The notes: generated by a model from the letters alone, not told the origin. A DNA stretch of 64,000 nucleotides from Aeoliella straminimaris (GCF_024054565.1 NZ_JAMXLR010000091.1:1-64000), one strand, 5' to 3'. Positions 35,888 to 39,585 are shown, counted from the first letter of the stretch. Numbers and translations are program-made.

Positions 35888-36880
35888 ATGTACAGGCTTC
35901 GGAGTTATGTAGGGCAGTTGTCGCTAGTTGCGCTGATTCTGTTGGTCGCCGGTCCCGCCGAGGCCGTGGAGCAGGCGCTCAATCTCGAATTGCTGCCCCC
36001 CACCAGTACGACTAATCGGGTGAATATTTCGGTGTCGTCGAGTGGTCTCAGCGACACGGAACTGACGCGTGTGACGGGCAATTCGCTGGCCACGATTGGG
36101 TACGACATCTACGAAGGCCTGCCGCTGATCCATTCCATCGCGTTCACAGGGGGCCATATTTCGCTGCTGGGCGAAAGCTCCGACAATGTCACTCTGAGCG
36201 ACAGCAATCTCATCAGCAATTTTAGCGTCGTCGGTTCTGGACTAGGGGGCGAGTTGGATACGCCCAACCCGCCCGGCCCTGTTAGCGATGGAACCTACAA
36301 TACCGCTGACCACATCGTACGAATCAATACTGGCACGCTTGCGGCAAGTGGATCTTTTTTGTTTGTTCCGTTTAACTACGACATCAATCTAGATCAAGAT
36401 CCGCTTGATTTCACCACGGAGAGCATAGCCAACATCGATGTTTCGCTCGTAGGCACCAACGGGCGGCAACGCACTTACGAAGTGGTTACGTCGCTTCCCA
36501 TCGATGCCACCGAGGTGATCGAGGACGCCGTGACGATCACCGTCGACGTCCAAGGTACTGTCACATCCAGCGACACTTTCAGCATTTTTCTCCCACTCGA
36601 AGGCGACTACAACGGCGACAATCGGGTGGATATTGCCGACTACACCGTGTGGCGCAACACCCTGGGTGCGACCGGCGCCGGCCTGGCGGCCGATGGTAAC
36701 TTCGACTGGGTGGTCGACGAGGCCGACTATACCCTGTGGAAAGACAACTTCAGCGAGACCAGTGGTGGCCTGCGCCTGGCCAGTGTCACGGTGCCCGAAC
36801 CTTCCGCCGCCGCGCTGGTGGCCATTGGCGTGATGGCATTTGCGCTGGCGGGCCGGATGCGAGCCTACGGCCCTTTATAG
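35888..36880 (+). CDS. Secreted protein with dockerin-like repeats and PEP-CTERM tail
   Basis: 330 aa from ATG 35888. A signal peptide (residues 1-26) is followed by a beta-sandwich-like region of about 200 residues. Two dockerin-type calcium repeats come next: GDYNGDNRVDIADYTVWRNTLG and GNFDWVVDEADYTLWKDNF. The C-terminus VPEPSAAALVAIGVMAFALAG-RMR is a PEP-CTERM signal (VPEP, hydrophobic helix, basic end), implying exosortase-mediated sorting. Proteins of this layout are hallmarks of Pirellulales. Its last 16 bases overlap the convergent RtcB gene. Substrate or partner unknown. Confidence 0.88.
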   Translation: MYRLRSYVGQLSLVALILLVAGPAEAVEQALNLELLPPTSTTNRVNISVSSSGLSDTELTRVTGNSLATIGYDIYEGLPLIHSIAFTGGHISLLGESSDNVTLSDSNLISNFSVVGSGLGGELDTPNPPGPVSDGTYNTADHIVRINTGTLAASGSFLFVPFNYDINLDQDPLDFTTESIANIDVSLVGTNGRQRTYEVVTSLPIDATEVIEDAVTITVDVQGTVTSSDTFSIFLPLEGDYNGDNRVDIADYTVWRNTLGATGAGLAADGNFDWVVDEADYTLWKDNFSETSGGLRLASVTVPEPSAAALVAIGVMAFALAGRMRAYGPL

Positions 36881-37989
36881 TTCAGCACCGGCTGCAGTTC
36901 CCGCTCGATTCGCAGCAGTTCTCGCTGCGCCCGCATCACCTGGCGAATGTCCTTGTAGGCGGCTGGAGCTTCGTCCAGCAGTATGCCGAGGCGACGGCGA
37001 TCGAACCACAGAGGGCCGACCTGCCGCTGAAAATGCTTGGAGTTCACCTGGCGTCGAGCCTGCGAGCGGCTGAGTTGCCGCCCGGCGCCGTGCGAGCAGG
37101 ACATTAGTGACTCGCTGCAGGCGCGGCCGGCGGTGTGAAAGCTGGGCGCTCCCATCGAACCGGGGACAATGCCCGGCTCGCCTTGCTGGGCCGATTGAGC
37201 TCCCTTACGGTGCACGAGAAGTTGCCGTCCGAAATGGTGTTCGCAATCGACGAAGTTGTGGTCGCCGTGAATCAACTCGGGCCACGACGCGCCGATGCCA
37301 AACATCTGTTGCATGAACTCCTCCACGGTGCGAAGCATCGCCAGCCGGTTTTCGGCAGCGTAACGCCGCGCCCAAGCTACGTCGCTCAGGTATCGCTGCC
37401 CCGGTTCGTCGTTAGCGTTCAACGCCAGTAGTCCGACGTTGGTCGCCGTGGCGGCGGCCAAGTGACGCGCACTGATCGCCTGCCCTATGCCTCGAGAGCC
37501 ACTGTGCAGCAGGAGCCACAGCCGGCCCGCTTGATCGGACTGGAACTCGAGAAAGTGATTGCCCCGCCCCATAGTGCCCAGCTGCACGCGCCCCTCACGC
37601 TGGGCGATCTTTGTCAGCCCAGCATCGCTTAAGTGGCGTGTGCTCAGATCGTCGGGAAGCGCGCGAGGCTGGCGATGCTTATTGCCGGGCACGCACTGGT
37701 AAAGTTGGCGCAGCACTGTGCCGGCGGCATGCTCGCTTTCCAAGAGTGCCGCCTCTACGTCGAACGGCACCGCTGCCATGCCACATCCGATATCGCCCCC
37801 GACCGCCGCCGGGTAGACGAGGGACTCGGTGGCCGCCACCACTCCAATGCAGACGTCGTGACAGAGGTGAACGTCGGGCATAACGGCCACATGCCGTACG
37901 TCGTCCGAGCTGCGGAGTCGCTCAATCGACTGAGCCACCTCTGGCGAAAGCGGCTCGGTGAGCCAAGTGTTGAGTGTTGCCTTGCTCAT
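36865..37989 (-). CDS. rtcB: RtcB-type RNA ligase (compact, RtcB2-like)
   Basis: 374 aa, GTP- and Mn-dependent RNA ligase that joins 2',3'-cyclic phosphate or 3'-phosphate ends to 5'-OH ends. Motifs: MPDVHLCHD, AAVGGDIGCGM (Asp and Cys metal ligands), MGRGNHFLEFQ (His), LLLHSGSRGIG (His), HGDHNFVDCEHH, and SCSHGAGRQLSRSQA carrying the guanylylated His. All key residues look intact. It is about 100 residues shorter than canonical RtcB, as in the RtcB2 group that repairs ribosomes with PrfH in other bacteria. No prfH is seen here. The ATG overlaps the TGA of the RbfA-like gene (37986-37989), so the two are coupled. Confidence 0.9.
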   Translation of the reverse strand: MSKATLNTWLTEPLSPEVAQSIERLRSSDDVRHVAVMPDVHLCHDVCIGVVAATESLVYPAAVGGDIGCGMAAVPFDVEAALLESEHAAGTVLRQLYQCVPGNKHRQPRALPDDLSTRHLSDAGLTKIAQREGRVQLGTMGRGNHFLEFQSDQAGRLWLLLHSGSRGIGQAISARHLAAATATNVGLLALNANDEPGQRYLSDVAWARRYAAENRLAMLRTVEEFMQQMFGIGASWPELIHGDHNFVDCEHHFGRQLLVHRKGAQSAQQGEPGIVPGSMGAPSFHTAGRACSESLMSCSHGAGRQLSRSQARRQVNSKHFQRQVGPLWFDRRRLGILLDEAPAAYKDIRQVMRAQRELLRIERELQPVLNYKGP

Positions 37990-38432
37990 CGACCCCCCTT
38001 TCCGCTGCCCGAGTCGGCGGCCGGCGTGGCGGCTACCACAAAGCTGAGCGAAGGTGCCTTCTTGCGCGTAATGGTCCCGGCGACGGCCGTACGCAGGAAT
38101 CCCGCTATGCGGGCCAGCCGAGCTTCCAGTTCACACCGGTCGAAACCTGCCTTGCTGCCACTCGTCTCCACGGTGACCTGCAGGCGGGAAGCATCGGGGG
38201 CGGGGATCACTTGGGCGACCCTGAGGTCTCTCAGCATGTCATCGCCGGTCTCACCAGCCAGAATCTGGTCGAGCGTCTCGGCCACCTGCCGGCAAAGCTG
38301 CTTCGCCTTGCGGTCCAGCTTGCTGTGATTGCGACCCGTGCGGAAGTACTCCCGCGGGTCGACGCCATCATCCTCGTGAATCTCTCCACAATGCGCGAGC
38401 ATCTGCTCGCGCGCACGCTTATCGAGTGCCAT
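37986..38432 (-). CDS. RbfA-like 30S-binding protein coupled to RtcB
   Basis: 148 aa from ATG 38432 (GAGAG upstream). The N-terminus has a distinctive CGEIHEDDGVDPREYF segment. Residues 45-135 follow the ribosome-binding factor A pattern: RKAKQLCRQVAETLDQIL helix, LRVAQVIPAPDASRLQVTVE strand-pair, then ELEARLARIAGFLRTAVAGT and ITRKKAPSLSFVV, matching RbfA's helix-kink and P-x-L-x-F ending. RbfA binds the 30S neck near helix 44/45 during 16S maturation. The normal rbfA lies with infB/truB; this copy with RtcB suggests a specialised 30S repair or ligation step. Overlap with rtcB is 4 bp. Confidence 0.75.
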   Translation of the reverse strand: MALDKRAREQMLAHCGEIHEDDGVDPREYFRTGRNHSKLDRKAKQLCRQVAETLDQILAGETGDDMLRDLRVAQVIPAPDASRLQVTVETSGSKAGFDRCELEARLARIAGFLRTAVAGTITRKKAPSLSFVVAATPAADSGSGKGGR

Positions 38433-38784: not shown

Positions 38785-39585
38785 TCAGTCGATCGCTTCG
38801 CCGATTGCCGCGCCAATATTGGCCCCATCGCGGCCACCAATCGCTCCGCCAAGGCCCGCACCTATGCGGCCTTCGGAGCTACGTGGGTAATAGCCGTTGC
38901 CATAGAAGCCATTGTCGTAGTATCGCGGACCGTAGCCGGTATTGTAACGACCTTGGTAGAAGCGACCACCATCGTAGTAGCGGCCATCGTCGTAGTAGCG
39001 GTTGTCATACACCCGGTTGTCGCGATAGTATCCGTACTGATCGTTGTTGAAACGATCGCTGCGGAAACGCGGTGCGATACGATAGGTGTTGCGATCGTAT
39101 CGATTCCAGCGTCCGTCGCGGCGGTAAACCCAGTAGTTGCTTGGGTGCCAGTACCACCACTCGCCATTGTGACGCTTGTAGCGCCAGCGGTTGGAGTTGC
39201 GGTCATTCCCGGCGCGGCGATCATCGTCGTTCCAGCGGCGGTCGCTGTTGCGCCGATTGTCATCGTTGCGATCTTCCCACCGTTCGCGAGCTTCCTCACG
39301 GCGATCTTCCTGGCGGTCTCGGTACTCTTCTCGCCGGTTCTCTCGCCGCTCGCGGGCATCCTCTTGACGCTCGTTGTATTCTTCTCGCCTTTCTTCCGCA
39401 CGCTCCCGGGCGTCCTCCATCGCCTCGCGACGATCTTCGCGTGCTTCGCGGCGTTGATCGCGGACTTCCTCACGAGCCTCACTGCGGGCATCGTTCGTTC
39501 GCTGATTGCCTTGCGGATTTTGGGCCATTGCGGCCGGCCCTATCAGCAGGGCGGCCGCCAGGGCACCGAGTAAACGCATCTTCAT
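38785..39585 (-). CDS. Secreted, highly charged protein with glycine-zipper end
   Basis: 266 aa; AAGGAG lies 7 nt before ATG 39585. Signal peptide MKMRLLGALAAALLIGPAAMAQ (about 22 residues). Residues 30-120 are almost only Arg, Glu, Asp, Ala and Gln in a repeating pattern (ARERREEYRDRQEDRRE). A Trp/Tyr/Arg/Asn/Asp-rich part follows (WRYKRHNGEWWYWHPSNYW, then RYYDDGRYYDGGRFYQG). The last 30 residues are a glycine zipper, GRIGAGLGGAIGGRDGANIG. The mixed charge block should form a single alpha helix; the tail may insert in a membrane. Neighbours are also secreted. Function unknown. Confidence 0.8.
   Translation of the reverse strand: MKMRLLGALAAALLIGPAAMAQNPQGNQRTNDARSEAREEVRDQRREAREDRREAMEDARERAEERREEYNERQEDARERRENRREEYRDRQEDRREEARERWEDRNDDNRRNSDRRWNDDDRRAGNDRNSNRWRYKRHNGEWWYWHPSNYWVYRRDGRWNRYDRNTYRIAPRFRSDRFNNDQYGYYRDNRVYDNRYYDDGRYYDGGRFYQGRYNTGYGPRYYDNGFYGNGYYPRSSEGRIGAGLGGAIGGRDGANIGAAIGEAID

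Follow-up and report, generated by a model that had tools for sequence, protein, structure and literature searches.

An RbfA paralogue encoded in an operon with an RtcB-type RNA ligase: a candidate system for mending 16S rRNA in planctomycetes

Why should the gene for an RbfA-like protein overlap the gene for an RNA ligase, and what could the two products do together? The pair lies in the window, the whole 64,000-nucleotide stretch of DNA that was analysed, which belongs to the 7.8-Mb genome of a pirellulalean planctomycete. The stop of the RbfA-like gene, whose product is here named RbfA2, and the start of the ligase gene share ATGA (Table 1), an arrangement from which translational coupling of the two genes would be predicted. 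An earlier note on this DNA had given these coordinates, strands and the common ATGA, and all were reproduced exactly. The operon neighbours in the window, a dockerin/PEP-CTERM-like gene and an arginine-rich ORF, are ordinary genes. An ORF of 266 aa just upstream of the operon has a very high content of Arg, Glu, Asp, and Tyr, has a start that looks secreted, and gave no Pfam matches. No rtcA was found adjoining the ligase in the window, and no prfH was found in the operon. Neither a substrate nor a toxin partner nor any stress context came to light.

Table 1. Positions of the operon, its conserved residues and motifs, and the related loci discussed in the text
Feature	Sequence	Position	Strand	Remark
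rbfA2, RbfA paralogue	window	37986..38432	minus	148 aa; ATG start
rtcB, RtcB-type RNA ligase	window	36865..37989	minus	374 aa; clade known only downstream of RbfA2
ATGA overlap, rbfA2 stop and rtcB start	window	37986..37989	minus	
RbfA2 N-terminal extension motif, residues 14-31 (HCGEIHEDDGVDPREYFR)	window	38340..38393	minus	DDGVDPR arm; D22, D25, and P26 in 35-36 of 45 relatives
RbfA2 helix 1 start signature, residues 40-49 (DRKAKQLCRQ)	window	38286..38315	minus	near-invariant Cys47
RbfA2 basic loop, helix 3/strand 3, residues 123-127 (RKKAP)	window	38052..38066	minus	alignment of 45 relatives
RtcB Asp66 and Cys69, metal ligands	window	37783..37794	minus	
RtcB His300, guanylylated histidine	window	37090..37092	minus	equals His404 of P. 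horikoshii RtcB
266-aa ORF just upstream of operon	window	38785-39585	minus	
Second-type RbfA2-RtcB linkage	L080	5363-6850		
Second-type RbfA2-RtcB linkage	L081	2754-4241		
Second-type RbfA2-RtcB linkage	L088	3872-5353		
Ro60/TROVE at unlinked RbfA2	L052	3151-5414		
Ro60/TROVE at unlinked RbfA2	L070	883-3276		
RtcA at unlinked RbfA2	L053	2626-4353		
RtcA at unlinked RbfA2	L072	595-4595		
RNase R at unlinked RbfA2	L102	2378-5300		
RNase R at unlinked RbfA2	L103	2413-5300		
baeRF near unlinked RbfA2	L027	1220-2416		
baeRF near unlinked RbfA2	L071	7121-8323		
PrfH	L170	G038 C10:2678473-2679075		
RtcB gene, apparently broken	G219	C1:4381620-4382926		

The earlier note had recognized an RbfA fold pattern in the middle of the first protein, and Pfam, profile-structure matching, and structure prediction all bear this out. 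RbfA2 reaches the Pfam RBFA family (PF02033) marginally, with 34.8 bits against a gathering cut-off of 34.7, and several of its relatives score slightly under that cut-off. Its match to the NCBIfam equivalog TIGR00082 is weak and fails the cut-off (19.6 bits against 51.15). A profile built from 45 RbfA2 relatives matched solved RbfA structures of several bacteria over the whole KH region, with a best E value of 3.7e-6. The fold prediction that the note had suggested was run with AlphaFold2 and gave a KH-type RbfA fold at residues 34 to 133, where pLDDT was mostly above 90 (84 for the model). When this model was searched with Foldseek, ranks 1 to 25 were RbfA, bacterial and mitochondrial, a few of them named solely as RbfA-containing assembly complexes, and the TM score by target was up to 0.84. 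The protein is thus predicted to adopt the fold of RbfA.

The start that the note had singled out, CGEIHEDDGVDPR, is real and is conserved among the relatives. As a candidate RtcB-docking signature, a DDGVDPR-type N-terminal motif was looked for with a simple pattern search that ignores kinship. Of 34 linked RbfA2 proteins 24 have it, as do 14 of the 39 unlinked ones, so that it leans to the linked proteins and is not exclusive to them. Helix 1 starts with the consensus DRK[AT]xQLCRQ across RbfA2, and Cys47 is present in 44 of the 45 relatives. The basic loop has the consensus R[KR][KR]xP, with R123 and P127 in all 45, and is among the most conserved parts of the protein. The equivalent helix 3/strand 3 loop of RbfA is inserted between bends of 16S rRNA (PMC9917171). 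By analogy, RbfA2 may bind the 30S subunit near h28/h44/h45, and the conserved basic loop is consistent with such binding. The AXG interhelical kink of RbfA is poorly kept in RbfA2 (Ala in 12 and Gly in 30 of 45; IAG in the window copy), and 30S binding could therefore have changed.

RbfA2 is a duplicated and diverged RbfA paralogue and not the housekeeping gene. A canonical rbfA of 142 aa adjoins infB on contig C74 of the same genome, which is where the note had proposed to look for a second, standard copy; the operon gene is not beside infB and is not the main copy of the genome. A 470-aa RtcB is also encoded separately from the operon ligase, and the pair therefore coexists with a normal RbfA and a normal RtcB. 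When 392 genomes of the phylum were searched with the RbfA2 profile, the scores split in two: 35 genes in 33 genomes scored at least 98 bits, and canonical RbfA scored no more than 44 bits. Three genes were intermediate (46 to 52 bits); two of the three are RbfA-like genes that precede basal linked RtcBs. Both kinds of RbfA are present in G000, G144, G345, G038, G377, and G304. RbfA2 shares with RbfA the KH-type fold, the basic loop, and the R..P.L.F signature but differs from it in the DDGVDPR extension, the QLCRQ helix, the location away from infB, and the failure at TIGR00082.

The second gene encodes a putative GTP/Mn-dependent 3'-5' RNA ligase. Its product matches the Pfam RtcB family (PF01139) at 269 bits (1.1e-79), and the first match of its AlphaFold2 model (pLDDT 95) was 4dwq, a complex of RtcB with GMP and Mn. 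As the note had claimed, the ligase keeps every metal ligand and the guanylylated histidine: alignment with E. coli RtcB places D66, C69, H145, H162, H244, and H300, and these residues are invariant in 25 relatives. The note had also described the ligase as about 100 residues short. This holds against archaeal and human RtcB (481 to 505 residues) but not against E. coli RtcB (408 residues, 34 longer) or E. coli RtcB2 (379 residues, 5 longer), so small size does not distinguish the enzyme and a special "compact" ligase was ruled out.

The ligase has a lineage of its own. Phylogenetic analysis of 61 RtcBs united the 32 full-length linked ligases in a single clade (SH-aLRT 96), which is sister to E. 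coli-type RtcB (support 90) and lies away from the second RtcB of the window genome. PrfH-linked RtcB2 forms a separate clade with a support of 100. Membership of the operon ligase in RtcB2 was rejected, since it scores 144.7 bits against 271.8 for TIGR03073 and 186.1 bits against 407 for NF007153 and falls outside the RtcB2 clade.

A search for RbfA-RtcB pairs across genomes, as the note had advised, found the pair across the phylum and linked twice independently. Together with the canonical rbfA beside infB and the predicted KH/RbfA fold, this means that the note's reading withstood the checks it had itself named as refuting. With a ligase profile, 14 ligases in the 392 phylum genomes scored 329 to 694 bits, after which scores fell to 287 or less. 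Each of these 14 clade ligases is immediately preceded on its own strand by an RbfA-like ORF, so the pairing is not chance. None of 16 fetched loci of the lower-scoring ligase group has such an ORF upstream. The phylum search, nearer relatives, and public genome contigs that were scanned as well yielded 34 different loci with a linked ligase of the clade, nearly all from Planctomycetota and one from a Myxococcota MAG (L076). The genes overlap by 4 nt at 25 of 33 junctions and by 8 nt at most others. Over 71 RbfA2 loci, RtcB is a neighbour at 29 and the next commonest family at 5, and no widely recurring third gene was found. The pair is absent from three same-genus genomes tested. The co-occurrence of RbfA2 with any RtcB genome-wide was discarded as uninformative, since RtcB is present in 40 of 42 phylum genomes and mere co-occurrence says nothing. 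A functional link between RbfA2 and RtcB is very well supported by these data.

The second linkage involves another ligase. At L080, L081, and L088, an RbfA2 gene is followed by a distant type of RtcB, again with an ATGA overlap; the ligase frame of L088 has an in-frame stop near codon 49. The closest kin of this second-type RtcB in the RtcB tree are unlinked, and the RbfA2 genes of these loci are nested in the RbfA2 tree among RbfA2 genes without RtcB. The existence of two ligase linkages indicates at least two separate gains of an overlapping RtcB by RbfA2, and the second, independent linkage is the strongest argument that RbfA2 and RtcB work together.

Linked and unlinked genes are interleaved in the RbfA2 tree, where well supported branches force at least 6 to 7 changes. 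In one tight group (L059, L060, L062, and L063) the same gene precedes RbfA2 and RtcB is found solely in L063, which points to recent loss or gain. Because the basal trio L116 to L118 is linked in both trees, the simplest history would be an old link between RbfA2 and RtcB followed by repeated loss of RtcB.

No RtcB lies beside RbfA2 in 22 of the 33 RbfA2-bearing genomes of the sample, so RbfA2 must either have a use apart from a linked ligase or work with an unlinked one. Some of the unlinked genes have neighbours from RNA repair or decay. In two lineages (L052 and L070) the gene just before RbfA2, on the same strand, encodes Ro60/TROVE. RtcA, the RNA 3'-phosphate cyclase, is encoded by a divergent adjacent gene or at a distance of some 2.5 kb (L053 and L072), and RNase R by the gene directly upstream of RbfA2, again on the same strand (L102 and L103). 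If each single-copy gene has a chance of about 0.2% of falling within a given 10-kb neighbourhood, we estimate that a few genes taken over about 40 loci would give well under one such case. Since these genes were picked after being seen, the excess over chance is suggestive only. Two loci of the Blastopirellula lineage (L027 and L071) encode baeRF, a bacterial aeRF1-type release factor, within a few kilobases of an unlinked RbfA2, an assignment made by Pfam on the L027 copy only. A genome with an unlinked RbfA2 also encodes a PrfH that is above the family cut-off and has no RtcB beside it (L170), and in G219 an RtcB gene is apparently broken by two stop codons.

Operons that join an RtcB-family ligase to a ribosome-acting factor are known. 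The RtcB2-PrfH operon of E. coli ATCC 25922 and others also consists of two genes with a 4-nt overlap, is also patchily distributed, and also coexists with ordinary RtcB (PMC9223846). It differs from the pair described here in that its partner is a release factor, whereas RbfA2 is an RbfA paralogue and by homology a 30S binder. The gene order is also reversed, with the partner first in the present pair, and the ligase clade is another one. PrfH releases the peptide and splits the cut 70S ribosome, and RtcB2 then reseals the free 30S subunit; the cut made by colicin E3 falls between A1493 and G1494 and produces ends that RtcB uses, and MazF-cut 16S rRNA is resealed by E. coli RtcB (PMC9223846). 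The proposal in the note that RbfA takes the place of PrfH as the guide of the ligase is only partly right: PrfH is a release factor that acts on the cut 70S ribosome, at a different step, and is more than a guide, so RbfA is no replacement for it. A true PrfH is present in 3 of the 392 phylum genomes. One genome, G095, carries both a PrfH-RtcB2 pair (L169) and a basal RbfA-RtcB pair (L117), and the two systems are therefore not exclusive.

Two further operons invite comparison. The RtcR-regulated RtcBA operon with Ro60/TROVE likewise has an RtcB ligase, the linked clade is sister to the E. coli-type RtcB, and some RbfA2 genes adjoin Ro60 or RtcA; however, RtcA is not beside the window ligase, and RbfA2 is no part of the known operon. 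In the archease-RtcB operon the gene of a small protein is likewise coupled to rtcB, but archease has an unrelated fold and most of the genomes studied here are without it.

What the pair may do is suggested by the site of RbfA on the ribosome. On the free 30S subunit, RbfA occupies the linkers h28/h44 and h44/h45 together with the 16S rRNA 3' end (PMC9917171), and it shifts h44/h45 to give a complex unsuited to being joined by the 50S subunit (PMC8201178). RNase R strips h45/h44 off the 30S subunit, and a published overlay compares its site there with the RbfA site (PMC10901742). A 30S-repair role for the pair would fit both the published RbfA site and the action of RtcB2 on free 30S subunits. 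The RbfA fold, the conserved insertion loop, and production in step with RtcB are, in our view, best explained if RbfA2 holds the cut 30S subunit for the ligase. We therefore propose a two-gene RNA-repair operon in which RbfA2 binds free 30S subunits with broken 16S rRNA and presents the break to RtcB, a proposal to which we give an even chance. Counting against it are the many RbfA2 genomes with no linked RtcB, the poorly kept kink, and the lack of any sign of a substrate, toxin partner, or stress trigger. RbfA2 would bind a free 30S subunit whose 16S rRNA is broken, perhaps by a ribotoxin, in or near the decoding region or the 3' minor domain (h28, h44, h45, and the 3' tail). While bound, it would keep the broken subunit out of translation and hold the 3' fragment and the two ends of the break in position. 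Given the overlay of the two sites, it could also guard this fragment, perhaps shielding it from RNase R. RbfA2 would bring in or position the co-translated RtcB, presumably by direct contact, and RtcB would seal the 2',3'-cyclic-phosphate to the 5'-OH end using GTP and Mn. Whether this amounts to a third dedicated ribosome-mending system besides RtcBA and RtcB2-PrfH is a slightly bolder question, and a positive answer falls just short of an even chance in our judgement. In such a system a duplicated 30S assembly factor would recognize subunits broken in the decoding region or 3' end and deliver a ligase, with the ligase swapped at least once and other partners (Ro60, RtcA, or RNase R) in some lineages.

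Other explanations of the pair were weighed against the same data. RbfA2 might activate or chaperone RtcB as a stand-in for archease, or act as an adaptor for tRNA or mRNA, with its RbfA fold a mere matter of ancestry and the ribosome not its target. KH-type folds are known to bind RNAs of many kinds, RbfA2 has not kept the AXG kink, and of 16 genomes with the pair just 2 have an archease that passes its family cut-off. Against this, 8 of 10 genomes without the pair also lack archease though they have RtcB, two thirds of the RbfA2 genomes have no linked RtcB, and the loop that RbfA inserts into 16S rRNA is among the parts of RbfA2 that are most conserved; we regard such a role as fairly unlikely. 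Decidedly unlikely, in our estimate, is a function in normal 16S rRNA maturation or in the joining of an interrupted 16S rRNA instead of damage repair. This idea draws on the facts that RbfA is a maturation factor and that RtcB joins rRNA and tRNA exons in archaea. However, in seven genomes with the pair the 16S genes run uninterrupted over 1509 to 1567 nt (the model has 1533 positions) and so hold no intervening sequence for splicing, and such a sequence was rejected as the substrate for these seven genomes. The 16S gene of the window genome itself was not found in its assembly. The patchiness of the pair, which is missing from the same-genus genomes tested, further indicates that it is not essential for maturation.

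It is also conceivable, if unlikely, that RbfA2 mainly shields or tags damaged 30S subunits for a choice of fate between repair and decay by RNase R, the RtcB link being one of several outputs. Its gene is directly downstream of that of RNase R in L102 and L103, is beside Ro60 and RtcA elsewhere, and is often apart from RtcB, and the RNase R and RbfA sites have been overlaid on the 30S subunit (PMC10901742). Yet the RNase R, RtcA, and Ro60 links are few and were chosen post hoc, and RtcB is by far the commonest partner of RbfA2. That two unrelated genes happen to share a transcript can hardly be right: RbfA2 frequently occurs without RtcB, but a chance operon is already contradicted by the 14/14 linkage, the overlap in 25 of 33 cases across a diverged clade, and the second independent linkage.

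In the open-access literature, no paper was found that mentions RbfA along with RtcB in a relevant context, although an earlier mention is possible in the RNA-repair operon survey of Burroughs and Aravind (NAR 2016). An open paper on release-factor evolution that covers RtcB gene neighbourhoods does not mention RbfA. Within the literature that could be searched, the candidate repair operon is therefore new in joining RtcB to a new kind of ribosome-directed partner. RtcB2-PrfH is, in the literature surveyed, the sole dedicated-ligase system shown in cells for toxin-cut 16S rRNA, and its authors expected others (PMC9223846). If the proposed role of RbfA2 and RtcB in 30S repair is true, it would tie ribosome assembly factors to ribosome repair and account for how a ligase finds a break within a large particle. 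It would also offer a two-protein system that is testable on E3- or MazF-cut 30S subunits, and the RbfA2 signature (QLCRQ plus DDGVDPR) would serve as a marker of ribosome-damage repair in planctomycetes. The presence of the pair in dozens of planctomycete genomes, with a link that has arisen at least twice, points to a dedicated system for mending 16S rRNA.
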